This document shows, in pieces, positions 2,344 through 52,320 of a DNA stretch of 64,000 nt; position 1 is the stretch's first letter; every line of letters starts with the position of its first letter. The stretch lies in assembly GCA_949775045.1 (NCBI GenBank), contig OX459104.1, forward strand, positions 16,828,226-16,892,225, given 5' to 3'. The notes below the pieces were generated by a model. It worked only from the letters and a program-made list of their open reading frames with translations. It ran no database searches and was not told the origin of the DNA. Source of the stretch: Metridium senile (lineage: Eukaryota > Cnidaria > Anthozoa > Actiniaria > Metridiidae). A program made the translations under genes and the position numbers.

Positions 2344-3795
2344 CCTTTAAGTTATGTTAGGATAATAAAATGCTCAAATTCCTGCTCAAGTATAATCAGA
2401 CGCGTGTTTCCATCTTTTACCAAAACTACTCAATAGTTATCATTCACAATTCGTCTGCATGGCTTCCATGGTTCTACAAACATTTTACATCGAACTCCGT
2501 AGTTGTAAACGGCTTTAAATAAGAGAAATTTCTTTGGGCATTGTATAGTGTTCAGTTTCAAGCTCAATCTAAGCTGGGATGGTGATTGTGTTTACGAATG
2601 CAAAACTAGCATAGGTGTCAATTATCCCAAGAATTCACACCCTTGTTGGGGGCACATAAGTATAAACAAAAGAGGACAGCAAGGGGAGGGGTGGGGCGAA
2701 GGCGTTGTTATTGTTTTATTCCCAGGAGGAAGAAAAGTATGAAAAGATAACGAACGTTTTTTGCAAGCATTACTATACTTGTGTTCTTGAATTCGGGTGT
2801 GTAGAGACCTTTCTGTCTATAAGTGGAGTATCATGTTTAGATGTAGAACTGCTTAATCAGTTAATGAGCAAGTGAGCAACTCAATGACGCAAATCCAAGT
2901 TAAATTTTTCATTGCCTTGCGTTTATTTGTTTGTCAAGCACAGTAAACGTAGAGCCTGCAAAGTACATTTATAATAGAATGCATTCATGTAAATATTAAT
3001 ATGGAATTTGTTGTAGTTTCATAATTTGCTATTTCTTTGAAACAAGATATACAAATAGCCAGGTGTGATATACCAAAGTATAAAGTGAATTGCCTTTGTT
3101 ATTGTTCTTCTTTTTTCATTACAACAGGTTCTATATGTCCCAGCCCTTCATCAATACACCCTCATAATTTATATATATATAATTTACTGTTCCACTATTG
3201 TCAATTCATTTACCCGAACTTCATTTTGCCAGCATCATACGAACTTATTTTAAGGCAATTTTTTTCTCCTTCTTCCTACAAGTTTTTGCAGATTTCTTCA
3301 GCCGTATATTAATTAATAATAACAGCACAATCAAATACCAAGACCAAATGATGACAATTACGAAAGATATTCGTTATCTTTTCATACTTTTCTTCCTCCT
3401 GGGAATAAAACAATAACAACGCCTTCGCCCCACCCCTCCCCTTGCTGTCCTCTTTTGTTTATACTTATGTGCCCCCAACAAGGGTGTGAATTCTTGGAAT
3501 AATCGACACCTATGCTAGTTTTGCATTCGTAAACACAATCACCATCCCAGCTTAGATTGAGCTTGAAACTGTACACTATGCAATGCCCAAAGAAATTTCT
3601 CTTATTTAAAGCCGTTTACAACTACGGAGTTCGATGTAAAATGTTTATAGAACCATGGAAGCCATGCAGACGAATTGTGAATGATAACTATTGAGTAGTT
3701 TTGGAAAAAGATGGAAACACGCGTCTGATTATACTTGAGCAGGTATTTGAGCATTTTATTATCCTAACATAACTTAAAAATATTCTACATTGGCC

Positions 3796-11000: not shown

Positions 11001-12232
11001 TTCGATCCCAGCAAAGTTAATATAGGGGACTTGTGGATATAGAAGTCTGTGATACTTTATCATAGAAGATATCATTTTTAATAACTTATGTATACAACTG
11101 CAATTTGTATCAGCCGAGAACTTGTATATTATATTAATTAATAGGTTAATACTGTTTTGTAGAGCACAAACAGTATACACATGAAATAGAATCAAATTGC
11201 TACTGTGGATTTAAGCAAACACTATATCTATGAAATAAAATAAAATTACTACTGTGGAATAGAGTGCAAACACCTTATTCGTGAAATAGAATCAAATTGC
11301 TACTGTGGAATAGAGTGCAATTGCTACTGTGGAATAAAGCGCAAACACTTCTGTGGAATAGAGTGCAAACACCATATTTATGAAATAGAATCAAATTACT
11401 TCTGTGGAATAGAGTGCAAACACCATATTTATGAAATAGAATCAAATTACTACTGTGGAATAGAGTGTAAACACTATAACCATGAAATAGAATCAAATTA
11501 CTACTGTGGAATAGAGCGCAAACACTATATCCATGGAATAGAATCAAATTACTACTGTGGAATAGAGCGCAAACACTATATCCATGGAATAGAATCAAAT
11601 TAGTACTGTGGAATAGAGCGCAAACACTATATCCATGGAATAGAATCAAATTACTACTGTGGAATAGAGCGCAAACACTATATCCATGGAATAGAATAAA
11701 ATTACTACTGTGGAATAGAGCGCAAACACTATATCCATGAAATAGAATCAAATTACTACTGTGGAATAGAGTGCAAACACCTTATTCGTGAAATAGAATC
11801 AAATTGCTACTGTGGAATAGAGCACAAACACTATACACATGAAATAGAATCAAATTGCTACTGTGGAATAGAGCGCAAACACTATATCCATGAAATAGAA
11901 CTGATCAAATTGCTACTGTGGAATAGAGCGCAAACACTATATCCATGAAATAGAATCAAATTGCTACTGTGGAATGAGCCCAAACACTATATCCATGAAA
12001 TAGAATCAAATTGCTACTGTGGAATAGAGCGCAAACACTATATCCATGAAATAGAATCAAATTGCTACTGTGGAATAGAGCGCAAACACTATACCTATGA
12101 AATAGAACCAAATTGCTACTGTGGAATAGAGCGCAAACACTATATCCATGAAATATAATCAAATTGCTACTGTGGAATAGAGCACAAACACTATATCCAT
12201 GAAATAGAATCAAATTGCTTCTGTGGAATAAA

Positions 12233-12770
12233 GCTCATGGATTGCTCATATCCATAAAATAAAAATAATTTCTGTGTAAACGTTCTTTTTAGTGACTATT
12301 AATCTCTATCAAAGACAAGTAAAGTTGTAATGAGATATTATTTCCTTTTGTATTTGATGTTTCTGGTTGAGTGATATTGAATAAATATAAACTAATACTA
12401 TTAGTTAGTAAGTAAACTATTTGCTTTTATTTCATAGTTTTAGTGTTTTCGCTCTGTACCATTATTGTGACTTTAAGATCATTAATGTTTTCAAGAATAA
12501 AATACCATTTTTTTTCTTTATGTATAACGAATATGAAAACAGGAAGCATTAAGATATTTTCTAGTCTTCTCCGCAGCCTCAATGCATTCGATCTCGAAAT
12601 AACCTATCGCCTTGGGCAACCTTACAAAAATAGCAAGTTTTTGAAAGCATCAAAACTACACACATGTAGACGATTTTCGCAGTTGACAACAGTTTTAAAA
12701 CAAATTTACAAGAACATATTTGAATAAATGGTAAAAAAGTTATCGAAGTTAATGCGAACTGCTTATATAT
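12233..12770 (+). repeat. Spacer copy 1, left part (interrupted by the transposon)
   Basis: Matches 19423-19960 and 21768-22310. It contains a 64-codon frame starting MKTGSIKIFSSLLRS that is kept in all three spacers with one or two changes. Such recent copies say nothing about selection, so it is not called as a gene. The spacer continues at 17569-17850 after the transposon. Confidence 0.85.
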
Positions 12771-15700
12771 GGGTCATTCCACAGTATTCCTCCGTTGCGG
12801 AGACTACACTTCAGAGCAATTAAGTGATTGATATATTTCCATTCAACAAATAATACAAACTTATTGTGGTATTACACAATAGGTCTCCTCCAGGGCTTTC
12901 AAAAAATCTACACAACATTTATAAATCAAAAGCGGGAGGAGCTACATTGAGTTAAACATGAGCTGTTGCGGAAACTACAAAAAAAACCCTCTGTTTTGAT
13001 CAACAAAGTTCAGGTTCAAAACTCTCTGACTCTATGATCTTTTCAAAATTCTTTTTTTGCTTACATTGAATGCTAGTCTATCTAGTTTAAATATATGCCA
13101 AAATATTTGGCCTAAGTCCATTACATTGCCTGAAAATTATAGAAAATAAGAAGGTGGTACCGTTGCGGAGACTACGTTGCGGAGACTACAAAAAGTACTT
13201 TCTTGAAAACAAGGGAGAAAATGACAAATTAATCCTTAATAATGATTGAAACATCAAAATTTGATGAATTTAATCTATAAAACACCAATGAGAAGACCAT
13301 AATTACATGCTAATCCAAAGACCTCATATTCCGAATATGAACAATATTGTCACAATGTCAAACCAGGGTTTTGTACTGGTTTGATTCAATACGATATGCA
13401 CACCTGCATTTTGACATCAAATTGAATTATTTTGCAACAATTTGCACAATGAAATAGAAAAAATGAGCCCAAATAAAGCTCAACCATTCAAACATGTATT
13501 TCGTTCATAAATGATGCCATCAGTAAAGTATAAATACCAGAATGCTTTGATGCTAACAATTGTAACTTCTGTTTAGGGATTAAAAAGCTGAACAAATGTA
13601 CAAAGCATTTGGGAATGTGAAGTTGTAGAAAAGAGATTATGTCACAGTGATTATCAAACATCTGCTCAGTGTAATAAAGTTAGCGACCCTTTTTGACAAT
13701 GTAGGTCTTGAAAATGGCTTCAATTTCCTCTAGGTCATCAACTGTAAAAGGGCCATTTCCTGTTAACTTTATTGGACCATAGAAGATGCAGGTGATGTGT
13801 TTCTCTTCTAAGTCATCACTTTTTGGCCAATTGAATTTCTTGGCACCAGAGCTATGAAGAAATTTGAAACTTGTGAATTGGCCGCTGGTTTCAAGGGCTC
13901 TACCAATGTAAAACACATTTACATAGTCCACAGCATAATACATGCCAACTTCGATGTTTGGTGTAGTTGTGAGCAGAGTTTGCTTGTGGAGTTCAGCAAC
14001 CATGTGTTTTCTGAATTTTTGAATGTCAGGTTGACCTAACATGATATCATTCTCTACAAGACACCTTGCATATAAGCTGACAAATACCCCACAGTCAAAT
14101 GAATTACTTTGCTGGGGAATGTTACAAGCTTTATTTGCAACAAATGACCACTGACTAACATCAAGGCTGCTGTCCATCATTTGTAGTAGCCTCCACATTC
14201 TTTGTATAGCTGCTTGTGCAGTGGACTTCACAAAAGCACAAGCTAAGCTGTCAAGCACAGCCATCAACTTTTCTTGTGGAAATACTGCAAGAAGAAACCA
14301 ATGTTCGGTTTCAGCAGTGTTGCATGGTACAAGGATTATATCCTGTTGAAGCAAGGCCTTTTCAGAAAGGAGCTTCTTTGTGATAAATGTCTTAAATATT
14401 TCCCATGGAAATACAGTCACATCAGTCATGTTTCTATTGGCTTTCAAAAGCTCAAGATAACTATCAACCACAAAATTTGTGAGGTAGTTAAATTCTGCCT
14501 TAGCATAACCACCATTAAGAGAATCCAAGTCGCTTGGTGAGATAATTCCCTTCCCTTTCCATTTAACTTTCCCATCAAGTATGCCATTTACCATGTACAT
14601 TGTGTGCATAGGTAATGTAAAGTATTGAGAGATATTCTCAAACTTTAGGGTGAGGTGAGGTGGTAGACCCATTTCAATATTGACACTGTTGGATTTCTTT
14701 CTACCTTGTTTGGATGATTGTTGTGGCACTGACTTTGGATGTGTGGTAGCTTTGGCAACAAGAGTGTCGTTCTGCTCGCCATCTTTGATGAGAAACTGAG
14801 AATTCTTTGCTGTGATAAAACTTGAATCTGATAGTTTTGCAGCATAGTGGATAGTATGGGTTTTAGGAATGGGCTTGCACTCATCCCATCGTTCTTTCAG
14901 GTTATCAGATTCACCTTTCACATCTTCTTGTGACACATATAATATATTTATATTCTTGCTAACATTCTGTGCAGCCTGAAAGAAGTCATGTGGAGTGTTG
15001 ACGACTTCTGTACCTCTAAGGATTGAGCGCCACACAGCTCTTTTCACTTCAGCACCAACACCATCGCAAGGACCTTTGCCATGAGCTGTCTCAAAGAAGC
15101 TCCATGTTGCCTCACAGCCAAAATCTTCTTGATGGTATAGGATACAAGAAAGGTTGTAGCGGTTCTTAAATTGAGAGGAGGGACCATCACTCCAGTAGTT
15201 GACTTTCCTTACTTTTGTCACCTTTTTAATATCTTTAAGAATGGCTTTGTTGAATGCATACACACTGCCTTTGTCATGGGCCATTTCATCACTCACAACA
15301 GCATATGAATTATGCTGTAAGTCCCCTCTTTTGTCTTTATAGTAGACAACAGCTGGGAATATGGTTACTGAATCATTTGACCAGTGTGCTGCCATGATTT
15401 CCTGTTGGTACTTTATTTGGAAGTTTTCAGAAAAATCTTCTTGGATTATAATTTCCCCCTCAGGCAGGTTCTCTTTCAGGTATTTCAACTCATTGAATTG
15501 TCGCTTTACATTGTACACATGCCTGGCAAAAGGTTGTAGCTGAGCTTTGAGATCATCTTTGGCATCAGCAGCAGTGCACTCTACTCTCTCCTTCCTTGCT
15601 TTACCATCATCACCTATGTTCCACTGGAAGTAAAACATCGGAGTGTTGTCATCGCACTGAAAAAGCTTTTCAATCGGTTGATGGACTTGGCATTTTGAAC

Positions 15701-17568
15701 ACTCTCTATCTATACATTCTACATCCTCCATATTACATACAGTAGTAAGTAGCATGTCCTCTGGCGTTTTTGGGACTTCGGGAATTACAGCTTTCAGGCC
15801 ATCAAGCAGCAACTTGATATTTTCGTGGTATTTACATACACACACTTCTTGGTCACGAGGAGTAATAGGAAGGACATTTGGTGGTCTAAGGGATGCAAAT
15901 TTTGATAAGCTGACTTGGATACTTGGTATTTCTGCTTTGAAGATTTCGTATACTTCAGAGATGTTGTAGATAAGCAGCCTCTTTTGCTTGTGCTCTTTCC
16001 CTTCTTTTGATCTGACTGTAACAAAGTCTTTACGTCCAGGACACATTCTACTTATGTCATCCCTCATGTAAAACTCCTCAATTGATCTTGTATCTTTATC
16101 AGATATTGCATCAGATCGCTTCTTTCTTTTCTCAACTTCTGATTTTCTTTTCTTTACAAGTTGGTCACAAATCTCAAGAACTGACTTCCGCTTTCTTGGA
16201 GACATTTGCTGAACTACATTGGCAATCACATGGTGGGCTTTTGATGGACTTTTTGGCAAACTTTTATTTACTTTTCTCACAGCCTTTCCTAGACTCTGGG
16301 GACTTTTGAATGAACCTGCAGTGGTAGCATCTTTCTTTACTTGATTGTGATGAGCCTTATCTTTATTCTTCTTTGATGCTCTCCATTGCCTCTGTCTGAG
16401 GGTTTTCTTTTTCCTTATTCTGAGCTTTTCACTTTCTGCTAAAGTATGCTTCTTCTTCAAATATTCTCTCTTTTTCCTTTCCCTATCCTTTCTCTTGTAG
16501 ACTTCCAACTTCTCTTCATCTTCTTTAAGTTTTTCTCTAAAACGTTTGCTCCTTTGAGTACTACTTGAAGACATTGTAGATGTGCAATTTAGAAATAATT
16601 ACCCACAATCCCATGCGTTGAGATCTGTATAAACTGCACATGCCCAGAACCTTACCACAGGAAGCCCAAGTTTACTAATGGTATATTTATAATAACAATA
16701 AGTAATATAATGATATAATAACTTTATTTTTATATAATATTAATATAACTTTATTTCTATATATTAGCAATAATTATGAGGTTCAGAAGCACTTTACAAG
16801 ATTGAAAAAAAAAAAAGATTATAAAAAGAATTTACAAAAAAAAAATCACATTTTTTTTTTTTTTTAAATAACAATAAAAATAAATAAAAAAATATAAATA
16901 ATATAAATTAAAGTAAATAAAGTAATAATAATCTTATTCTATAATAAATCAAAATAAGTATTTTAATTTTAAATAAAGATGGGGAACTTTAAAGCACTTT
17001 TTAGAAGATTTCTTTCAAAAATGTAGTCTCCGCAACAAAATTGTAGTCTCCACAACAAAATTAAAAGTGATATAATTAGGAAACTAATAGAAAAAACTGA
17101 ATTCTTTGTACTGAATATGTTTTCCCTGGTTAAGAATTAGAACTTCTCAAAAACTTATACAAAAATTCTCATCAGGGAATATACAGGAGAAACTTTAAGG
17201 TCTAAAAACGTTGCGGAGACTACATCTCGCCAGTGGAACATAAATATTTTTTATAGTGTTGGCACACCCAACTTAGATCATGTATTTTTTGAAAGAGGCC
17301 AACTAGTAGGACAAGTCCAGGAAACTTTCAGAATTGTCTGGCTGTTTGTTTCATTTTAATCTGATAAAGTATTTGTAGTCTCCGCAACGGCTTTTTCATG
17401 ATTTTCGATAATCAGTTGCAATTTATTCTCAGATGCTGACACATAAATGATTTTTTTTTTCAAAAACGTTTACTTCAACTACCTGACACTATTCTAAGAC
17501 CAAATACACACAGTTTTGGGGAAATTTCAAAACCACATGAGAGGTAACCAAATACTGTGGAATGACCC
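12771..17568 (-). mobile_element. Intact DNA transposon encoding an RNase H/Ulp1 fusion transposase
   Basis: The element is 4798 bp. Terminal inverted repeats GGGTCATTCCACAGTATT are exact over 18 bp at 12771-12788 and 17551-17568. Two empty sites in the sister spacers (near 19955 and 22305: CTGCTTATATATATA...CATTAATATATAATAAAC) confirm the ends. The target is an AT repeat, so the duplication (2, 4 or 6 bp of ATATAT) cannot be fixed. Eight 14-bp GTTGCGGAGACTAC motifs lie near the ends: 12794, 12965, 13162, 13176, 17023(-), 17043(-), 17210 and 17375(-); two carry one change. The single gene lies on the minus strand. The superfamily is not assigned; KDZ/Zisupton-like elements also combine an RNase H-fold transposase with Ulp1 domains and are a possible comparison. 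Confidence 0.92.
13680..16574 (-). CDS. 964-aa transposase with RNase H-like core and Ulp1/SENP cysteine protease
   Basis: One uninterrupted frame from ATG 16574 to TAA 13680. Residues 1-160 are very basic with coiled-coil character, as expected for nuclear localisation or DNA contact. Residues 245-295 hold a likely zinc knuckle: C245, C247, H250, C280, C287, C292, C295. Residues 375-510 look like an RNase H-fold core, with acidic candidates D380 (IIIQEDFSEN), D463 (YWSDGPSSQFKNRY) and E495 or D504 (FFETAHGKGPCDGVG). Residues 740-845 carry the Ulp1 catalytic set: H758 (EHWF), D775 (VLDS), Q822 and C828 (SFDCGVF). Its place between matched inverted repeats with empty sites shows it is the element's own gene. 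The Ulp1 assignment is strong. The DDE residues are inferred from motif order. The intact frame suggests recent activity. Confidence 0.9.
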   Translation of the reverse strand: MSSSSTQRSKRFREKLKEDEEKLEVYKRKDRERKKREYLKKKHTLAESEKLRIRKKKTLRQRQWRASKKNKDKAHHNQVKKDATTAGSFKSPQSLGKAVRKVNKSLPKSPSKAHHVIANVVQQMSPRKRKSVLEICDQLVKKRKSEVEKRKKRSDAISDKDTRSIEEFYMRDDISRMCPGRKDFVTVRSKEGKEHKQKRLLIYNISEVYEIFKAEIPSIQVSLSKFASLRPPNVLPITPRDQEVCVCKYHENIKLLLDGLKAVIPEVPKTPEDMLLTTVCNMEDVECIDRECSKCQVHQPIEKLFQCDDNTPMFYFQWNIGDDGKARKERVECTAADAKDDLKAQLQPFARHVYNVKRQFNELKYLKENLPEGEIIIQEDFSENFQIKYQQEIMAAHWSNDSVTIFPAVVYYKDKRGDLQHNSYAVVSDEMAHDKGSVYAFNKAILKDIKKVTKVRKVNYWSDGPSSQFKNRYNLSCILYHQEDFGCEATWSFFETAHGKGPCDGVGAEVKRAVWRSILRGTEVVNTPHDFFQAAQNVSKNINILYVSQEDVKGESDNLKERWDECKPIPKTHTIHYAAKLSDSSFITAKNSQFLIKDGEQNDTLVAKATTHPKSVPQQSSKQGRKKSNSVNIEMGLPPHLTLKFENISQYFTLPMHTMYMVNGILDGKVKWKGKGIISPSDLDSLNGGYAKAEFNYLTNFVVDSYLELLKANRNMTDVTVFPWEIFKTFITKKLLSEKALLQQDIILVPCNTAETEHWFLLAVFPQEKLMAVLDSLACAFVKSTAQAAIQRMWRLLQMMDSSLDVSQWSFVANKACNIPQQSNSFDCGVFVSLYARCLVENDIMLGQPDIQKFRKHMVAELHKQTLLTTTPNIEVGMYYAVDYVNVFYIGRALETSGQFTSFKFLHSSGAKKFNWPKSDDLEEKHITCIFYGPIKLTGNGPFTVDDLEEIEAIFKTYIVKKGR

Positions 17569-17849: not shown

Positions 17850-19422
17850 TGACAACATTATTTCCATGAAATAGAATCAACTTGATACTGTGGGATAGAG
17901 CACAAACACTATATCCATGAAATAGAATCAAATTGCTACTGTGGAATAGAGTGCAATTGCTACTGTGGAATAAAGCGCAAACACTATATCCATGAAATAG
18001 AATCAAATTAATACTGTGGAATAGAGCGCAAACACTATATCCATGGAATAGAATCAAATTACTTCTGTGGAATAGAGTGCAAACACCATATTTATGAAAT
18101 AGAATCAAATTACTACTGTGGAATAGAGTGTAAACACTATAACCATGAAATAGAATCAAATTACTACTGTGGACTAGAGCGCAAACACTATATCCATGGA
18201 ATAGAATCAAATTACTACTGTGGAATAGAGCGCAAACACTATATCCATGGAATAGAATCAAATTACTTCTGTGGAATAGAGTGCAAACACCATATTTATG
18301 AAATAGAATCAAATTACTACTGTGGAATAGAGTGTAATTGCTACTGTGGAATAAAGCGCAAACACTATATCCATGAAATAGAATCAAATTGCTACTGTGG
18401 AATAGAGTGCAATTGCTACTGTGGAATAAAGCGCAAACACTATATCCATGGAATAGAATCAAATTACTACTGTGGAATAGAGCGCAAACACTATATCCAT
18501 GGAATAGAATCAAATTACTACTGTGGAATAGAGTGCAAACACCTTATTCGTGAAAAAGAATCAAATTGCTACTGTGGAATAGAGTGCAATTGCTACTGTT
18601 GAATAAAGTGCAAACACTATATCCATGAAATATAATCAAATTACTACTGTGGAATAGAGCGCAAACACTATATCCATGGAATAGAATCAAATTACTTCTG
18701 TGGAATAGAGTGCAAACACCATATTTATGAAATAGAATCAAATTACTACTGTGGAATAGAGTGTAAACACTATAACCATGAAATAGAATCAAATTACTAC
18801 TGTGGAATAGAGCGCAAACACTATATCCATGGAATAGAATCAAATTACTACTGTGGAATAGAGCGCAAACACTATATCCATGGAATAGAATCAAATTACT
18901 ACTGTGGAATAGAGTGCAAACACCTTATTCGTGAAATAGAATCAAATTGCTACTGTGGAATAGAGCACAAACACTATATCCATGAAATAGAATCAAATTG
19001 CTACTGTGGAATAGAGCGCAAACACTATATCCATAAAATAGAATCAAATTGCTACTGTGGAATAGAGCGCAAACACTATATCCATGAAATAGAATCAAAT
19101 TGCTACTGTGGAATGAGCCCAAACACTATATCCATGAAATAGAATCAAATTGCTACTGTGGAATAGAGCGCAAACACTATATCCATGAAATAGAATCAAA
19201 TTGCTACTGTGGAATAGAGCGCAAACACTATACCTATGAAATAGAACCAAATTGCTACTGTGGAATAGAGCGCAAACACTATATCCATGAAATAGAATCA
19301 AATTGCTACTGTGGAATAGAGCACAAACACTATATCCATGAAATAGAATCAAATTGCTACTGTGGAATAGAGCACAAACACTATATCCATGAAAAAGAAT
19401 CAAATTGCTACTGTTGAATAAA
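17850..19422 (-). repeat. 51-bp tandem array, second block
   Basis: About 30 units with variants such as CTTATTCGTGAAATAG, CATATTTATGAAATAG and CTATATCCATGGAATAG. Short AGTGCAATTGCTACTGTGG insert units are scattered through it and shift the register. Similar order of variants in 11275-12220 points to segmental duplication of arrays rather than independent growth. Confidence 0.9.
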
Positions 19423-20240
19423 ACTCATGGATTGCTCATATCCATAAAATAAAAATAATTTCTGTGTAAACGTTCTTTTTAGTGACTATTAATCTCTATC
19501 AAAGACAAGTAAAGTTGTAATGAGATATTATTTCCTTTTGTATTTGATGTTTCTGGTTGAGTGATATTGAATAAATATAAACTAATACTATTAGTTAGTA
19601 AGTAAACTATTTGCTTTTATTTCATAGTTTTAGTGTTTTCGCTCTGTACCATTATTGTGACTTTAAGATCATTAATGTTTTCAAGAATAAAATACCATTT
19701 TTTTTTCTTTATGTATAACGAATATGAAAACAGGAAGCATTAAGATATTTTCTAGTCTTCTCCGCAGCCTCAATGCATTCGATCTCGAAATAACCTATCG
19801 CCTTGGGCAACCTTACAAAAATAGCACGTTTTTGAAAGCATCAAAACTACACACATGTAGACGATTTTCGCAGTTGACAACAGTTTTAAAACAAATTTAC
19901 AAGAACATATTTGAATAAATGGTAAAAAAGTTATCGAAGTTAATGCAAACTGCTTATATATATATATCATTAATATATAATAAACAGCAATAAAGGACCA
20001 ATATAAGGAATGTTATACGATATTTTGTGACAAACTTTACTGTCTTTATCTTGGCGCAAAAGCTTTCTTATTTTGACAACCGATGAAGACTGTAGTACCA
20101 GTTGGAACTTCTTGATTAAAAGCAGTACAATCAGAGATAAAATATTTATATATAATTGAATAAATAATGTTGTTTTCTGTTCCTTCATGCATGAAAAGCG
20201 AAAGCAAATAACATTATATTGCCAAATGTGGAATAGAGTG
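19423..20240 (+). repeat. Spacer copy 2 (empty transposon site)
   Basis: Contiguous 818-bp version of the spacer. It carries no transposon at the TATATA tract near 19955 and so serves as an internal control for the insertion. Confidence 0.88.
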
Positions 20241-21767
20241 CCAACATATTATATCCATGAAATAGAATCAAATTGTTACTGTGGAATAGAGCACAAACAC
20301 TATATCCATGAAATAGAATCAAATTACTACTGTGGAATAGAGCGCAAACACTATATCCATGGAATAGAATCAAATTACTACTGTGGAATAGAGCGCAAAC
20401 ACTATATCCATGGAATAGAATCAAATTACTACTGTGGAATAGAGCGCAAACACTATATCCATGGAATAGAATCAAATTACTACTGTGGAATAGAGCGCAA
20501 ACACTATATCCATGAAATAGAATCAAATTACTACTATGGAATAGAGTGCAAACACCTTATTCGTGAAATAGAATCAAATTGCTACTGTGGAATAGAGTGC
20601 AAACACTATATCTATGAAATAGAATAAAATTACTACTGTGGAATAGAGTGCAAACACCTTATTCGTGAAATAGAATCAAATTGCTACTGTGGAATAGAGT
20701 GCAAACACTATATCTATGAAATAGAATCAAATTACTACTGTGGAATAGAGTGCAAACACCTTATTCGTGAAATAGAATCAAATTGCTACTGTGGAATAGA
20801 GTGCAAACACTATATCCATGGAATAGAATCAAATTACTACTGTGGAATAGAGCGCAAACACTATATCCATGGAATAGAATCAAATTACTACTGTGGAATA
20901 GAGCGCAAACACTATATCCATGGAATAGAATCAAATTACTACTGTGGAATAGAGCGCAAACACTATATCCATGAAATAGAATCAAATTACTACTGTGGAA
21001 TAGAGTGCAAACACCTTATTCGTGAAATAGAATCAAATTGCTACTGTGGAATAGAGTGCAAACACTATATCTATGAAATAGAATAAAATTACTACTGTGG
21101 AATAGAGTGCAAACACCTTATTCGTGAAATAGAATCAAATTGCTACTGTGGAATAGAGTGCAAACACTATATCTATGAAATAGAATCAAATTACTACTGT
21201 GGAATAGAGTGCAAACACCTTATTCGTGAAATAGAATCAAATTGCTACTGTGGAATAGAGTGCAAACACTATATCTATGAAATAGAATCAAATTACTACT
21301 GTGGAATAGAGTGCAAACACCTTATTCGTGAAATAGAATCAAATTGCTACTGTGGAATAGAGCACAAACACTATACACATGAAATAGAATCAAATTGCTA
21401 CTGTGGAATAGAGCGCAAACACTATATCCATGAAATAGAATCAAATTGCTACTGTGGAATGAGCGCAAACACTATATCCATGAAATAGAATCAAATTGCT
21501 ACTGTGGAATAGAGCACAAACACTATATCCATGAAATAGAATCAAATTGCTACTGTGGAATAGAGCACAAACACTATATCCATGAAAAAGAATCAAATTG
21601 CTACTGTGGAATAGAGCGCAAACACTATATCCATGAAATAGAATCAAATTGCTACTGTGGAATAGAGCACAAACACTATATCCATGAAATAGAATCAAAT
21701 TGCTACTGTGGAATAGAGCACAAACACTATATCCATGAAAAAGAATCAAATTGCTACTGTTGAATAA
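20240..21767 (-). repeat. 51-bp tandem array, third block
   Basis: About 30 units. Within 20560-21340 a two-unit (~102-bp) pattern alternates CTTATTCGTGAAATAG and CTATATCTATGAAATAG types, a second level of periodicity above the 51-bp unit. Confidence 0.88.
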
Positions 21768-22585
21768 AACTCATGGATTGCTCATATCCATAAAATAAAA
21801 ATAATTTCTGTGTAAACGTTCTTTTTAGTGACTATTAATCTCTATCAAAGACAAGTAAAGTTGTAATGAGATATTATTTCCTTTTGTATTTGATGTTTCT
21901 GGTTGAGTGATATTGAATAAATATAAACTAATACTATTAGTTAGTAAGTAAACTATTTGCTTTTATTTCATAGTTTTAGTGTTTTCGCTCTTTACCATTA
22001 TTGTGACTTTAAGATCATTAATGTTTTCAAGAATAAAATACCATTTTTTTTTCTTTATGTATAACGAATATGAAAACAGGAAGCATTAAGATATTTTCTA
22101 GTCTTCTCCGCAGCCTCAATGCATTCGATCTCGAAATAACCTATCGCCTTGGGCAACCTTACAAAAATAGCACGTTTTTGAAAGCATCAAAACTACACAC
22201 ATGTAGACGATTTTCGCAGTTGACAACAGTTTTAAAACAAATTTACAAGAACATATTTGAATAAATGGTAAAAACGTTATCGAGGTTAATGCAAACTGCT
22301 TATATATATATCATTAATATATAATAAACATCAATAAAGGACCAATATAAGGAATGTTATACAATATTTTGTGACAAACTTTACTGTTTTTATCTTGGCG
22401 CAAAAATGTTCTTATTGTGGCAACCGATGAAGACTGTAGTACCAGTTGGAACTTCTTGATTAAAAACAGTACAATCAGAGATAAAATATTTAAATATAAT
22501 TGAATAAATAATGTTGTTTTCTGTTCCTTCAAGCATGAAAAGCGAAAGCAAATAACATTATATTGCCAAATGTGGAATAGAGTGC
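21768..22585 (+). repeat. Spacer copy 3 (empty transposon site)
   Basis: Contiguous spacer nearly identical to copy 2, again without the transposon near 22305. It is followed by a short, more diverged 51-bp tract to about 22870, which ends the satellite. Confidence 0.88.
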
Positions 22586-23089
22586 CAACATATTATATCC
22601 ATGAAATAGAATCAAATTGCTACTGTGGGATAGAGCACAAACACTATATCCATGAAATAGAATCAAATTGCTACTGTCGAATAGAGCACAAACAGCTATA
22701 TCGATGAAATAGAATAAAATTGCTACTATGGAATAGAGCACAAACACTATATCCATGCAATAGAGTCAAATTGCTACTGTGGGATAGAGCACAAACACTA
22801 TATCCATGCAATATAATCAATTAAATTGCCACTGTGAAATATAGAGCACAAATATTTTATCTATGAAATAAAATAAAATTGAATAAATATTGATGTTTTT
22901 CTGTTCCTTCATGCATAAAATTGCACGATCATGAATGTTAAGTGGGTACTTGTTACCATGGTGTAACAACGTCAAACTAGCGAACTGTGGACAAATTCCA
23001 GATTTCTAATTATGCTTCAACAAACAAAAGTTATAACTCACAATATTGGCTTGAAAGGAAGTCGTGTGAATCATATAAGCCAAGCTGCT

Positions 23090-26000
23090 ATGGCATTCTC
23101 GGCGAAATTCGCGTTTGTTATCAAACTAGCAATGTTCGTTTCCGTTCTTTCTATTCAAAATGGTGAGTTGTATTGCTTTATATATGATTATTTAATGATT
23201 TAAACGGTTTTCTTTGTTATCAGTAGTGCTTTATATCTCGTATTTCACTGCTTATTATGAAATCAAGTGCAATATCTGTATATTGCCCCCATTTGTCTTG
23301 AATACTTAGCACTTAAAGACTGGTCCTGAGGAAAGCAGTTAGTTCTTAACTGATTTCTCGAGGGGTCAGTCATACGAAGAAACAAATTTCTCTCCATTTG
23401 ACTAAAAACAAGAGCTTTCGATGGACTTTGACCTGATTACGCATTCTCGTTCCCAGAGCCCACGGTCAACCGTCCAGTGGATGGTTTCGCCCGAAGGGCT
23501 CTGGCTCAATCCAAAACCGGAAGTTTTCCTGATTGGCTGATTTTTTTAAAATAAGTACCGGAAGTTGAATCTCATCAAAGTCAACCGATTTGTGATTGGA
23601 TAAAAAAACTGGAAGGTAAAAAAAAAAAGACAAAATCGTTATATACTTACCTCCACCCTGACACCGCTCGAAAGTGCACAACTAATGTCTACGATGATCA
23701 CGGATAAATTTTCGACAACTTGATGAACTTTAAAAAATTATTTCTCGATGTAAAAATAAAATAAATAAACACAACTCAAACGGCTTTCGATAGATAATTT
23801 ATTTATCGGTTTAGTCGTTTTAGAGATATTATTTTTTTTTGTGATTTAGTGTTCAACGAAGTTGTGCATGCATCTTTCCTAAATATGCGGGTAAAAATTC
23901 GAACCGTTCAAAATCACACTAAAACGCACTTTTATTCAAACAATTTTAGTTCAAAATGTTCATTAACTATCAGAAAATATTATTATAGGATTTTTTTCAA
24001 ATCATTGGTAGTTTGATGTAGTTTTAGGTCGCATTTTCGAGACCATGTGCAAATTCTAACGGTAAATCAAAACGCGTTTGGGCTACCTGTGCTCTGTCGG
24101 CCATCTCTGTCGGAATCCTCTCACACATGCGCAGTAAAACCGGAAACAGAGAGTCCTGAAAACAGTTTGCGTTTGCAAAATGGCGCCGTTTAAGTAAAGT
24201 CGTCTCCATGGCTGTCTTGTGTTGGACTCCAAGACCTACCAAGGCAATTTTGGCAAGTTTTGACCTGTAAAAAAAGCAATCGGTGCAATATGCTACCAGT
24301 AGCTAGGGATGGTACTTGAGTGCTGAGCTTTGGTGTTAAAGGCTGCAGCATGTATCAGACAACACATACAATTCGTCATTAGCACAGTTTCTATCAAACT
24401 GAGAACGTTACAATTTTTTAAAGAGCAGCATATCCAAAGGGGACGAATTTCCAGCTAAAGGGCTTTAAAAGGCCGTGTTACGCGCTACGATGTAAGGTGC
24501 AACTTTTCTCGCGAAAAAAATGTATTGCAGGTTGCACGATCGTTTTTCACGTTTGACATCCCCTCGCGCGACTTGAATTTTTCCTTTTTTTTTGCTGCAC
24601 GAAAAGTAGAACCAACTGCAATAACTTTTGTAAAACTTTACGTGTTACATGGTCGTGCAACTTGTCTCTTGACACAATTAGAGCGCGCGAACCAATTTTA
24701 CGATGTTGCTGCTCAATGATTCAAATAAATAATTACGCATGCAACCTGCAACACTTTTTTCGCGAGACAAATTGCAACTGAAATGGTCGCGTGTGGCACG
24801 GGCTTTAAATATTCGCGCGAGATTTGCTCTAATCCACTGGAATACAACCGTTGTTTACTAGTTTCTAACTATAATTAAAATAACGACTCGGAAGGTAAAC
24901 ACAATAGAGGTGTTTTTCTTTCGCACCAAACAATGCATTCTTGCACGTCCATGTTATTTGAATAGATTTGGTATTTTCTGAAGTTGAAAATACTGGTATT
25001 TTGATGGCTTTTTGACCGAAATAAACGAAGCATTAATGGCCTTTTAAACAGCTAAGTGAAACAATTGATATATAATCGTTCCGGAAGACCAGGTGTTGAC
25101 AATGTTTCTTGTGTATGGAAATTTTGAACTTTTATTGTGAATAATTATTCAGACGATTACAAATGATGTATGGAAATAATCAGCAAAATTAAAAACTATT
25201 GATACTAATAAGCTATTTTGACCTAAGGAAAAAACATTAGTTTTGACTTTTATTCACTCCAAATTGTTTATGAAGAACAACTCCGTGTTTCTAAAACACC
25301 AGACCAATAAAACGATAAGCCGATTTAATTTTATTAAGCTTTCAGATAAGCCTTCCATACAAATCTCTCGATCAGCCGACCATTTTAAAAGCTACAAATG
25401 TATAAGTATTAATTAGATTATCCGCCATTTTGTCCCTGATTTCTGGTAATGTATAACTTGCCTGATGGATTTGTTTGTTTATAACAATACAGGTCCTGCT
25501 TGTTCACTGAACTGTACGAAACGTTTCTACATGACGTCACCATTGTTTATGGAAGGCAAATATGAAGAATTTGGAAGCTGCCATGAATATAACAACATAA
25601 CCTGTATTTACATGAAATTTACCCTGACAAAACGAACAGAAGCATTTCCGAGCTTAAAGGTAATAATTTTATTATTTTATTGATCATCATCAGTATCGTC
25701 GTTGTCGTCGTTATCATCATTGTCGTCATCGTCATTGTCGCCATTAATATTATCAAAATATCGTTATCATAATTTCAATATTTGTTTAAAGGTTCCTGCA
25801 TCTTTATTGAGCAAGGAAACAAGTTTTACCTATTTTTACCATGGGTGTAGATCACTATCAGATTGTGACACTGACACGCTCTGTCGAACATTGAATAGCA
25901 CCAACAATGGAACGCTTAAAACTTGTGAACGGAGTTGTTGCTCTGCTTTTTCGTGTAATGTTGGTGAAAGTGGTGAGTAGCCAGCCCAGCCTAGCCCAGC

Positions 26001-29000
26001 CCAGCCCAGCCCAGCCCAGCCCAGCCCAGCCCAGCCCAGCCCAGCCCAGCCCAGCCCAGCCCAGCCCAGCCCAGCCCAGCCCAGCCCAGCCCAGCCCAGC
26101 CCAGCCCAGCCCAGCCCAGCCCAGCCCAGCCCAGCCCAGCCCAGCCCAGCCCAGCCCAGCCCAGCCCAGCCCAGCCCAGCCCAGCCCAGCCCAGCCCAGC
26201 CCAGCCCAGCCCAGCCCAGCCCAGCCCAGCCCAGCCCAGCCCAGCCCAGCCCAGCCCAGCCCAGCCCAGCCCAGCCCAGCCCAGCCCAGCCCAGCCCAGC
26301 CCAGCCCAGCCCAGCCCAGCCCAGCCCAGCCCAGCCCAGCCCAGCCCAGCCCAGCCCAGCCCAGCCCAGCCCAGCCCAGCCCAGCCCAGCCCAGCCCAGC
26401 CCAGCCCAGCCCAGCCCAGCCCAGCCCAGCCCAGCCCAGCCCAGCCCAGCCCAGCCCAGCCCAGCCCAGCCCAGCCCAGCCCAGCCCAGCCCAGCCCAGC
26501 CCAGCCCAGCCCAGCCCAGCCCAGCCCAGCCCAGCCCAGCCCAGCCCAGCCCAGCCCAGCCCAGCCCAGCCCAGCCCAGCCCAGCCCAGCCCAGCCCAGC
26601 CCAGCCCAGCCCAGCCCAGCCCAGCCCAGCCCAGCCCAGCCCAGCCCAGCCCAGCCCAGCCCAGCCCAGCCCAGCCCAGCCCAGCCCAGCCCAGCCCAGC
26701 CCAGCCCAGCCCAGCCCAGCCCAGCCCAGCCCAGCCCAGCCCAGCCCAGCCCAGCCCAGCCCAGCCCAGCCCAGCCCAGCCCAGCCCAGCCCAGCCCAGC
26801 CCAGCCCAGCCCAGCCCAGCCCAGCCCAGCCCAGCCCAGCCCAGCCCAGCCCAGCCCAGCCCAGCCCAGCCCAGCCCAGCCCAGCCCAGCCCAGCCCAGC
26901 CCAGCCCAGCCCAGCCCAGCCCAGCCCAGCCCAGCCCAGCCCAGCCCAGCCCAGCCCAGCCCAGCCCAGCCCAGCCCAGCCCAGCCCAGCCCAGCCCAGC
27001 CCAGCCCAGCCCAGCCCAGCCCAGCCCAGCCCAGCCCAGCCCAGCCCAGCCCAGCCCAGCCCAGCCCAGCCCAGCCCAGCCCAGCCCAGCCCAGCCCAGC
27101 CCAGCCTAATGAAACTAATTAAACTTCTCTATTATTTTTTGTAGTGACTACCTGTTCTAAAGAGACACCTTGTCAAAACTTTGGAACATGTCAAAAAATT
27201 GTGAAGTCTACTTACTGTAAATGTGTCCCTGGATATTATGGTAAACTATGCGAAAAAAGTGAGCAATAATTTGGAGAAAAGAAATGGTTGTCTGCCATCT
27301 CAACTCTTTATATATATTTTGTAACTTTCAATTAAAATTTTATTTTAATGAGTTTTTGTCATCAATAATATCATAATATTAATACTAGTAATATCTCCCT
27401 ACTAAACTAAATACGGCATAAGGCTTTGGTGAACGAATAAACAAAACAAAAAATGCAGTAAAAGTACTGGTGAAGAGGCGAATGAAAATATTATTTTTAT
27501 TTTATTTTATGGGTAGTAGTTTTAATTTGAAGTAGATTACTTCTTGAACTTTTTAAACTCTCCTTTACTCATGCATATATATACTAGTTATACAATTGTT
27601 TCGAGTAGCATACCGTGGAATATACCACGAGTCAATTGTATTTTCTGGCATCGACATATTTCATGACTGATCCTTCCACCAACATTTTTACAAGAATCAA
27701 CATTTTCAAAAGGCAAAAAGAACGGTTTAATATCAATCCATACGTGTAGAACTTTCGGAGAAGATTGAAAATGTGATACCATTTACTTATCCACCACGGT
27801 AAATAAAGTGCCGAACGTTTGTTTGGCGCTACTACCGTCCAAAAATGCAAGTTTTCGTGATTTTTATAAAGCTCGAAGGGGGAAAGAGCGCCGACGTCTT
27901 TCAGTTGTGTTCACAAATTGAAAGGAAAGGTAAAATAAACACGTACAAAGGTAACAATTGGTTATAAAGCTTTATTTTAAGTTGTACTATTGAGTTCCGG
28001 TTAGGTAAATCCAAATTACCAAACTGTTAGTGCATTTATTTCATGTTTATATTTTCCTCGCATACATTCTCTTATGATTATTGTGGACATTCAAAATGGT
28101 GACAGCTGACGGGGCGCGGGCTCAATGGCCGGAATAGTTGGCGATGTATATACACATGCACGAGCCTTTAGGCGAGTATGTATGTAAAGAAAACACACAT
28201 GACGAGTGGGATATTCACGGTATGTCACGAGGAAACATTGTATAACTATTCTATCACATAATACAGAATAGACAAACCGCAATGCCATACATGTCTGATG
28301 GGAAGAGGCAGTTGAATACCGCCGAATATACATCGACTTTCAAGCATTCTGATTTGCTGTATTTTATATGATGGGGGACAAATAATTAGACACAACATCA
28401 ACAAAAGAACCATCGAATCGCTATCATTTCAAAAGCAATTTACCGTACGAACTTTCTAATAAATATCTGCACATCGTATATCAAAATGCACGGGCATTCC
28501 TAAGCAACTTTATGTTTTACAACACTTGTGTGAATTCTCGCGCGCTGATTGGTTGATTTACCGTGGTAAATAAGAGTACAGACAACGGTGATCACGTCAT
28601 CATGTCACACAACACTCGTGCGGAATTGAGTTTATGGATAAACTATCAATGGAAATTACTTTTTTGTAAGTAGCAAATTGTAATAAATGTAACTATGCTG
28701 TCATGGAGCTGTTGTCGTTTTAATTTTATGCGTTTTTTCAGTCTTTTCGACAAATCTTCACTTACAATCAATTCTGTAGTCTTTTCAACAAAAACGTGCT
28801 AAAATTACATTTTTGACGAGCAATACCATTCGTTCAAGACTGATTTAAAAAGCTTAGAATGTTGTTCAAAGGCTACAATCATGTGCTAAATACCTTGGGA
28901 CATTGCCCATTTTTTACATGTAAAAGTTTTGTATAAAATTTTCACGTTTCCCCCTCTCCCCCGTTTCAATGTTGAATTGTGGGAGTGTAAAACGCTTTTC

Positions 29001-37845: not shown

Positions 37846-40800
37846 CTAAACCTCACAACCCTTATCCGATACATGTACATCAGTCACAGTTACAACCGTC
37901 TTGCAGCTTTTCGATATTTGATTGCTTGCAGTTGCCTGACTACTCCTACCACTACCACTACCACTTCCACTACCACTTTTCTTTCCTGAACGTTTACCTC
38001 TGATAAGATCACTATAAAGCTTTCTAGTGCGAGCAGTAAAAGCAAAAGCGATAGCGATGTAAAGACCCTGTAAGCTCTGCAGTATTACAAACATGTAGGA
38101 CAGGACGGGATAGCCAAACGATGCAGCGAAACCGAACACCCATGTGAAGCCCATTAGTGACGCGATGCGGACGTAGACTGCAAACCTGCGGCGACGTTCA
38201 GACTGGTCGATCATGACGTTGACTTGCCTTGAAGAGAAATGATGAAATTGGTAATGATGATGAAAATAATTATCATGATGCATGGGGATGATGATCAAAT
38301 AATGATATGATTCGTATCAAAGATATGCCTATTGTTCTGTTGCAATCTCAACAAAATCTTAAAAAAATAGAAAAAAATCTCGCGCGCTAATCAAAGTCTT
38401 TTGTTACTTCTCACCTACAATACCATATATGGTAATGGCATTGTTTTCATTTTAATCATTGCTATCACTGTCGTTATCATATTATTATTGTCATATTAAT
38501 AAACATCATCATCATAATAATTACTATCACAAATTAACCAGCTCACTATCACATACATCATCGTCACGACCACCACCATCATTATCACACAAATCATATA
38601 ATCATCATCATCATGCACCATCATCATTTAAGACCCATGGTCACTTCCCAGCATGCTTTGAGATTTGGATTTGGATTTGAGTGTTATTATTCAATCGCAG
38701 TCAGTCGTATTACAAGAAAACAAATAAAACAAAACGCTAAACGATTTAGTAAGAGCGTAAATACCCACTCACATCGTAAAATATATCAAAATGTCTGAAT
38801 GTGCGATTTTCATGGTCCACGAAATTCAGTCTTTAAAGCGGTGCATGCTGGTCAGTGACCATTAGTCTTTATAAACTATCTTTATTAGACACTACAATGT
38901 CAATACATATTTACCTTTGTGTGTCTCTGATAGCTTTTACCGTCATGGAAAACATGGCAATATTGAACACGGTGATCAGCGCGGCGGGCAGAAAGAAGAC
39001 GTACAAGTTGGCAAGAGGATCGCCAATCCAACAAATCCCACGTGATCCGTAACCTATGACTACTTTATTGACATTTGAAGTATCCACGGCAACGCAGATT
39101 GACACGAAAAGGAATACGGGAAGCCATCCAACTGCCATATGACGTACGAATTGCTTGCGGTGACGTTGTTTGGCGTCAGCCAATCGGCAATGATTAGATG
39201 TGAACGCCTTCCATGTACTGAACGCGATGATGGCCGTCCACACGAAAGACACTAGAAAGAAGTAGTGAAGAAACATAGCTGTTGCTTTACAAGTGATTGG
39301 TCTTCCTATCTGCCTGCTTCCAAAAGCCCACAGAGTTTGTCCAAGGAGAATGGAAACGCTGAGATTCATGAGGTTCAGTCCTGGAGGTGTTCGCAGCTCA
39401 CTGAACAATGAGTAAGTCACAAGAACAAAGATGAGAGATGTAATTGATATCAGCATACAAATGAAAGTCAATAAGACCAAGACTTCATTGCGTTTCTCTG
39501 ACAATTCACTAAATAGGTCTTTAGGGATGTTCTCGCAGATGAACAAGCTGCCATTTAACCAGGTGTACTGTGAGATATCGTACAATCTTCTTGAAACGTT
39601 TACGAATACAGTTCCATTTTCCAACACGACAAACTCTTCATCGTCCATCTGAACAAATGTCCCAGAACAGTTGGAAATTATTTCTTGGAAGTCACTTATA
39701 CTAATTGTGAAGTCGTCGCTCCAAGAGGGCTTTGTGACCAGAACTTCTCTGCACTTCTTGGTTGAATTGTCATACACTTTGCCTGCTTTGCATGCTGATC
39801 TTGCATTGAGGGAAGTAGCAGGCCCAACTTGGAGGAATACTGTGTTGATACTAGCAACGAATTTTAGTGGTGTATAGCAGGTATTGTTATGCACTAAAAA
39901 AAATAAGAAAATTCTAAGATAAGTGAAAGATGCTTTGAGGTTAAACTAGTGTTGACTGTGTTATACGTTATACCATGATCACCTCGGATTCTTTTGTCTT
40001 CCGATGGGTTTACAAACCCAAATTTTCCTCATTCATACAACATAAGGGAAATTTAGAAGACAAAGAAATCCTTCGTCTTTTACTAAATTTCCCTCTATTT
40101 AATTAATGCAAGGGTCCTCTAAATTTCCCTCATGTTGTATGCATGAGGAAACTGTAGGAGACTATCCCTCGTATAGGAGTGATCTTACACGCAATGGTCC
40201 CTCATTATAACAATCACCAAGACCATTCCTGGATCGCTTCGACCCAGTTGGAAATTCTTAAAAGAAAAGACCCTGTACTACACACAAGTCTATACTCTAA
40301 CACTTGTGGGAATGCCTATGCGCATGCATTGACTACATTGAAGTATAGTATGTCATGCGTGTTTATGCATGCAAACAAACTATAATGAATGCATGGTGGT
40401 ATAATTCGGCATTGTCTCCTTTAACAAATGCAACTATTTCTTAAAGTATGCCGAAAATCAACAGCTTTGTAAAAGTTTATAATTTCAGCTTCTATGAAAA
40501 CTAACATATATTTCCTTTACAGTACTGCGATGTTTAGCTATTTTTATAGAAATCGTACAATAACTTTAAAACGCGACAAGATATAAAAAAAGACAAGGTT
40601 TTAGAGATCAAACTGTGCTCTAAACGATGGCGTTAACAGTTTGTAAGTACAACAAAATCCGGTGTTCCTGCATGGAACTTCTTAAAAATAAGCGTTAAAA
40701 AATAAAAAAATACCAACTAAAAAAACGAGCCGTATTTCTTCAAAACAAATCAAATAGTTCATTTATTCATTTTTAAGAGAATGTATACAGCTTTTATAGG

Positions 40801-51770: not shown

Positions 51771-52320
51771 AGAAGTTGTGATACTTTATCATAGATCTAT
51801 GGAATAAGAGTTTTCACTGATAACTTATGCATAAAACTTTTATCAGAACATGTATATTAATAATTTTGTACATGTTTTGTAGAGCGTTAAAATTATCAGA
51901 CCATGAAATAGAATCAAATTGCTACTGTGGAATAAAGTGCAAACAATATATATCCATGAAATATAATCAAATTGCTACTGAGGAATAGAGTACAAACACT
52001 ATATATCCATGAAATATAATCAAATTGCTACTGTGGAATAGAGCGCAAATACCATATCCATGAAATAGAATCAAATTGCCACTGTGGAATAGAGCGCAAA
52101 TACCATATCCATGAAATAGAATCAAATTGCCACTGTGGAATAGAACGCAAACACTATATCCATGAAATAGAATCAAATTGCTACTGTGGAATAGTTCTTA
52201 TTTTGTAACTATTAGTAAGACAGGTTAAGTTGTATTGAGATATTGTTTCCTTCATATTTGATGCTGTTTACTGGTTGAGTAATATTGACTAAATATTTAG
52301 TAAATAAAAACTTCTAAACT
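51770..52320 (+). mobile_element. Second copy of the 51-bp-array element
   Basis: The left flank (GATACTTTATCATAG ... TGTTTTGTAGAGC) matches 11050-11165. Six 51-bp units follow at 51900-52190. The right flank matches the start of the satellite spacer (GACAAGTAAAGTTGTAATGAG region). Flank, array and flank therefore move or copy as one unit. Confidence 0.8.

Follow-up and report, generated by a model that had tools for sequence, protein, structure and literature searches.

A sea anemone DNA transposon that joins a predicted RNase H-like transposase core to an exchangeable SENP-type protease

Results

An intact transposon with two empty sister sites

We analyzed a 64,000-nucleotide stretch of the Metridium senile genome (the window; positions 16,828,226 to 16,892,225 of contig OX459104.1, assembly GCA_949775045.1) and characterized a 4,798-bp element at window positions 12771-17568, which is an intact and probably recently mobile DNA transposon. 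Its gene encodes a single protein in which a SENP/Ulp1-type protease is placed behind a transposase core. At a probability of roughly 0.6, we read the element as a cut-and-paste transposon of an animal-wide family, whose tethered SENP accessory would remove SUMO at the transposase-DNA complex. Its ends and the corresponding empty sites are as follows.

12771..12788, plus strand: left terminal inverted repeat (TIR; 3' end relative to the gene), GGGTCATTCCACAGTATT, exact inverted match to 17551-17568
17551..17568, minus strand: right TIR (5' end relative to the gene), exact inverted match to 12771-12788
19926..19995, plus strand: empty site 1, sister spacer with both element flanks contiguous
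22270..22340, plus strand: empty site 2, sister spacer with both element flanks contiguous

The initial annotation had described exact 18-bp inverted-repeat ends, two empty sites in sister spacers and an unbroken 964-codon frame, and this observation was confirmed. The TIRs pair over 18 bp without a mismatch, or over 25 bp when the flanking TATATAT is included. Exact copies of the left TIR are confined in the window to the two element ends, while four matches, versus 0.03 expected, are obtained at up to three mismatches, the other two lying in a 51-bp satellite. The spacer that holds the insertion lies between arrays of this satellite and is present three times, twice without the element. Aligned to these two spacers without gaps, the 255-bp left flank displays 2 and 4 differences and the 292-bp right flank 13 and 18. 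With the insertion in a (TA)n tract, the length of the target-site duplication (TSD) is unreadable: the element flanks agree at 2, 4 and 6 bp (ATAT/ATAT), and all three lengths fit equally. The filled site is longer than one empty site by 4 nt and than the other by 6 nt, according to a hand count on the printed sequences. Six contigs in the protein database carry the window protein, the longest measuring 4,790 bp, so that more copies or more assemblies may exist.

A transposase core with a proposed aspartate triad

The single open reading frame on the minus strand, 964 residues long, is organized as follows.

13680..16574, minus strand: transposase-SENP gene, single open frame of 964 codons
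16125..16574, minus strand: residues 1-150, Lys/Arg-rich N-terminal region by composition and conservation; DNA binding presumed
15690..15842, minus strand: residues 245-295, CxCx2H...C...C...Cx2C cluster, each position kept in 202 to 207 of 207 proteins
15018..15455, minus strand: residues 374-519, predicted RNase H/integrase fold carrying D380, D463 and D504
15063..15065, minus strand: D504 codon, proposed third catalytic acid, D in 207 of 207 proteins; first turn of the last core helix
13971..14630, minus strand: residues 649-868, SENP1/2-type protease domain (H758, D775, Q822, C828)
13740..13940, minus strand: residues 879-945, C-terminal beta-rich domain, common to protease-less relatives

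Conservation was counted in the 207 of 218 family proteins whose core covers more than 85% of the model. Ahead of the core, the conserved Cys/His cluster is a probable zinc-binding site; a putative zinc knuckle had been noticed earlier. The RNase H-like character assigned to the transposase stands as far as the predicted fold is concerned: in the model, one Asp lies on strand 1, another after strand 4 and an acid on the last helix. No Pfam transposase family, nor any other Pfam family, matched the core above its cut-off, and its sequence profile yielded no match to solved structures up to E 1. With the window protein included, D380 is Asp in 206 and D463 in all 207 proteins, in agreement with two of the three core residues initially named (D380, D463, E495). 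Position 495, by comparison, is Glu in just 28 of 207 proteins and Ala in 166, which rules out E495 as catalytic residue, so that one of the seven residues initially named was wrong. We propose a catalytic triad of D380, D463 and D504, the latter as putative third acid, on the basis of conservation and of its predicted place in the fold. The initial interpretation is partly supported.

A SENP-type protease between two family-wide parts

The protease module stood up to closer analysis, both in its Ulp1/SENP identity and in its catalytic set. The Peptidase_C48 profile matches the window protein at 54.4 bits versus a curated cut-off of 20.7, and the SENP fold is present together with the H-D-Q-C set. 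All 29 Ulp1-bearing proteins in the alignment, the window protein among them, keep H758 and D775, and all 28 that reach Q822 and C828 keep these two; the counts cover 29 of 34 Ulp1-bearing proteins (P0005, P0008, P0014, P0075 and P0167 left out). From its sequence, the domain should strip SUMO from proteins. It differs from SENP1 and SENP2 in that the tunnel Trp is replaced by Tyr and in that the module is fused between the transposase core and the C-terminal beta-rich domain.

This last domain, rich in strands, is recognized by a model built from the C-termini of 84 proteins without detected protease, which matches the window protein at 1.5e-6 and 28 of 39 protease-bearing proteins at E<=10 (worst 8e-4); some of the 11 missed are truncated. 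An earlier model from 6 proteins had matched 4 of 21 protease-bearing proteins, the window protein not among them. Because protease-less relatives share the domain, the protease sits between two family-wide parts. Compared with solved structures, the domain sequence gave three matches, none below E 1, and structure-based fold matches for the C-terminal half were all taken up by the SENP domain. We also observed that Ulp1- and OTU-bearing relatives have a similar C-terminal domain (YYAVDY..GR..KFLH..WP), unlike that of protease-less members, as if it were travelling with the protease.

An animal family exchanging its protease

Relatives of the window protein number 240 at E<=1e-3 and 778 by profile search; 120 of each, from 7,990 scored candidates in either case, were listed, most of them unnamed. 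The hosts named among the matches listed are all animals and include a stony coral, a starfish, sea cucumbers, molluscs, insects, bdelloid rotifers, a tunicate and a fish. Two protein-alignment scans of viral contigs found no relatives, and of 44 pattern matches in bacterial and archaeal contigs one is a relative, designated L010 and located in a bacterial metagenome-assembled genome. Two thrips proteins named ARL14 effector protein (P0079, P0114) contain the transposase core, which may reflect a further domain fusion or a misannotation.

Classified with models built in-house, the 218 proteins (217 plus the L010 translation) comprise 34 with Ulp1, 5 with OTU, 92 with neither despite a C-terminus being present, and 87 truncated or other; Ulp1, OTU or no detected protease occupy one and the same place. 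A core tree was computed from 78 proteins, namely 29 with Ulp1, 5 with OTU and 44 of 88 protease-less ones (every second one, plus L010); a further 85 proteins whose cores are complete, classed as truncated or other, were left out. Ulp1 appears there in two separate clades of 13 and 16 rows (99 and 100 in the Shimodaira-Hasegawa-like approximate likelihood ratio test), and OTU in two distant parts, requiring 3 changes; 5 changes are needed overall. Part of this analysis of changes also left out P0077 and P0065 because of their long branches.

Trees of the core and of the C-terminal part conflict in 26 proteins holding both (26 of 29; P0002, P0014 and P0167 were dropped for an incomplete C-terminal domain). 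The core tree displays a clean 11/15 split (100/100) and groups P0016 with P0021 (99/98), while in the C-terminal tree P0016 and the window protein are sisters (100/99). The approximately unbiased (AU) test rejects a clade of these two in the core tree (p-AU 9e-88) and the 11/15 split in the C-terminal tree (p-AU 1.2e-5); the pair tested on the core tree (P0001 and P0016) was picked after the C-terminal tree had been seen. In a sliding comparison, P0016 shares 20-46% of its residues with the window protein in segments reaching up to residue 650 and 55-61% in segments starting at 751 or later; with P0021 it shares 52-74% in segments reaching up to residue 650 and 35-45% in those starting at 601 or later. 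The P0016 entry covers 10 sequences from 2 contigs of up to 878 kb, so an assembly artefact is unlikely. Judged from these alignments and trees, P0016 is a recombinant with an exchange in the linker, its Ulp1 module grouping with that of the window protein. An ancestral Ulp1 followed by losses fails to explain P0016.

Subterminal motifs and a related element

A 14-bp motif, GTTGCGGAGACTAC, matches the window eight times at up to two mismatches (six exact) versus 0.14 expected, and every copy belongs to the element and is no more than about 550 bp away from one of its ends.

12794..12807, plus strand: copy 1, 5 bases inside the TIR
12965..12978, plus strand: copy 2, one mismatch
13162..13189, plus strand: copies 3 and 4, head to tail
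17023..17056, minus strand: copies 5 and 6, copy 6 with one mismatch
17210..17223, plus strand: copy 7, opposite orientation
17375..17388, minus strand: copy 8

L010 (JAAEPJ010000558.1) is a complete protease-less relative of the window transposon on a 4,028-bp contig, most likely animal contamination in the prokaryote genome set. Its probable TIRs, 12 bp long (GGGCAATTCCAT, at 206-217 and 3730-3741), were chosen from a repeat list for their resemblance to the window TIR. An exact 12-bp pair arose in 105 of 3000 shuffles of the L010 flanks, and one that also agreed with the window TIR at >=9 of 12 positions in none of 3000. No direct repeat and no matching 4-bp flank was found at these ends. 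Near them lie eight copies of a 13-bp motif, GTACGTCCAACAC, at up to two mismatches versus 0.03 expected. The motifs of the two elements look unrelated, whereas their TIRs resemble each other, and in both elements the outermost motif copy downstream of the gene lies directly inside the TIR. This layout is as expected of transposase binding sites, to which we would assign the motifs.

Surrounding sequence

11160-12234, 17955-19420, 20227-21766, 22571-22881 and 51901-52194: 51-bp satellite arrays

The arrays, partly open in several frames, alternate with the insertion-bearing spacer, and a separate block lies near 52 kb. TIR and satellite unit (in the arrays, e.g. 11963-11980 and 19102-19119) share the 11-mer ATTCCACAGTA, a shared word of 11 bases being reached in 1 of 20,000 shuffles of the unit; this was examined after TIR matches had been seen in the satellite. 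The satellite may derive from such element ends, or the transposase may recognize it. Elsewhere, 38911-39945 (minus strand) holds a piece of a secretin-family (7tm_2) receptor gene, whose nearest named relatives are from sea anemones (Exaiptasia, Actinostola), which points to a sea anemone or close relative as the probable host. An 805-residue open frame at 45710-48127 (minus strand) with a reverse transcriptase match (RVT_1, 2.2e-29) is by its look a largely intact non-LTR (long terminal repeat) retrotransposon, and 25981-27106 consists of 225 copies of CCAGC, open in several frames on both strands. Neither Rfam at gathering thresholds nor a tRNA search returned any match in the window.

Discussion

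Proposed role of the protease

In the mechanism that we favor, the basic N-terminus and the Cys/His region would recognize the TIRs together with the eight copies of the subterminal motif, and the core with its three aspartates (DDD) would cut the element ends and join them to AT-rich target DNA, as we infer from transposase families. With less certainty, the SENP module, kept at the transposase-DNA complex by its fusion to the transposase, would remove SUMO there, most likely from the transposase itself and/or from host silencing or repair factors, and this deSUMOylation would protect the complex from degradation or silencing. The protease would be an accessory, acquired, lost and swapped in different lineages (OTU in place of Ulp1, or Ulp1 passing from clade to clade), a behavior which argues that it modulates transposition or the survival of the element in its host and does not carry out strand transfer. 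The alternation of Ulp1 and OTU suggests removal of SUMO or ubiquitin as the common theme, perhaps stabilizing the transposase or easing repair; a link to repair was proposed by the Ginger authors in passages of PMC2836005.

Three other roles have to be weighed against local SUMO removal. The protease might process a transposase polyprotein, like viral and Ulp-type proteases, as the initial annotation had considered; it does lie in cis between core and C-terminal domain, and in the window protein a Gly-Gly precedes the catalytic His. This Gly-Gly is, however, not conserved in the aligned Ulp1-bearing proteins, Pfam identifies no ubiquitin-like domain in the window protein, OTU replaces Ulp1 in 5 proteins, and the 92 of 218 proteins without detected Ulp1 or OTU share the core and C-terminus, making self-processing very improbable. 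Hardly more credit goes to the module as a passenger, a piece of host sequence that was captured and plays no part in transposition. Transposons commonly capture genes, and many relatives manage without the module, but every protein counted, drawn from two separate clades, retains the catalytic H, D, Q and C, and the module passes between lineages as a unit with its frame kept.

Action at a distance, on host silencing by Piwi-interacting RNAs (piRNA) and SUMO and not at the transposase complex, deserves more attention but still appears unlikely. It gains from PMC8131101, PMC8131105 and PMC13195609, according to which transcriptional silencing directed by piRNAs or Argonaute proteins requires SUMO in worms and flies. 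Fusion to the transposase, however, argues for local action. The OTU versions, moreover, would act on ubiquitin, not SUMO.

A participation of transposon Ulp1/OTU domains in transposition has long been suggested, in PMC2836005 and work cited there, as far as the passages covered go, and these literature passages contained no test of such a role. Here one core is found with Ulp1, with OTU or with no detected protease, and in a natural recombinant module and core come apart, so that the contribution of the protease can be compared under control. The family, with its swappable modules for removing SUMO or ubiquitin and this recombinant, is a way to test how such enzymes serve transposons.

Comparison with known transposons

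Among transposons carrying an Ulp1 protease, Mutator-like elements (MULEs) are named from plants, hydra and lancelet in the passages of PMC2836005, a likeness in cargo to the window element. The MULE profile matched neither the window core nor any of 21 scanned members; a remote relation may exist. Likewise, Pfam, in which the Kyakuja-Dileera-Zisupton (KDZ) transposase has a profile, gave no KDZ match in the window protein or the 21 members. With retroviral integrase cores, the predicted core would share the RNase H fold and the placement of its acids, two where strands 1 and 4 end and one on the last helix; it differs in its third acid, which is an Asp (D504), 41 residues past D463 in an HGKGxxDG motif.

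That the element is an undescribed member of a named Repbase superfamily, most likely Sola2, with an acquired SENP domain falls just short of an even chance. Sola2-type elements have short TIRs and AT-rich 4-bp TSDs (ATAT, AAAT, ATTT) in the passages of PMC3627910, and the window element is compatible with this description, having short TIRs, ATAT/ATAT flanks and a filled site 4 nt longer than one empty site. Against this, the (TA)n site fits 2, 4 and 6 bp equally, L010 is without a matching 4-bp flank, and the family includes Lottia and Plakobranchus proteins, whereas a bivalve survey (PMC10294476) reported Sola, among the molluscs it examined, from bivalves alone. Literature searches, with Repbase and most subscription papers outside their coverage, found no description of the family, which may already be catalogued, for instance as Sola2. 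The TIR occurs as text in 38 papers, and judging by title none of the 20 listed deals with transposons.

The closest parallel in architecture is Ginger1, whose transposases bear a C-terminal Ulp1 or OTU domain, alternating among families in animal hosts, in the passages of PMC2836005. With such fusions published, the pairing as such is not new, and the window element is a variant of it in another transposase family: the Ginger1 core is Gypsy-integrase-like (H2C2, DDE, GPY/F), whereas no integrase family, rve included, had a Pfam match at E<=1 in 21 members or at E<=10 in the window protein. We raise tentatively, as a view with the odds somewhat against it, that this is an undescribed animal-wide DDD family with a freely exchanged deconjugase cassette (SENP or OTU plus its own C-terminal subtype), which would have converged with the unrelated Ginger1 on placing a deSUMOylase or a deubiquitinase in an equivalent position, as a weapon against host SUMO/ubiquitin control of transposition. 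If true, such convergence would suggest that animals generally hold DNA transposons back through SUMO/ubiquitin control.
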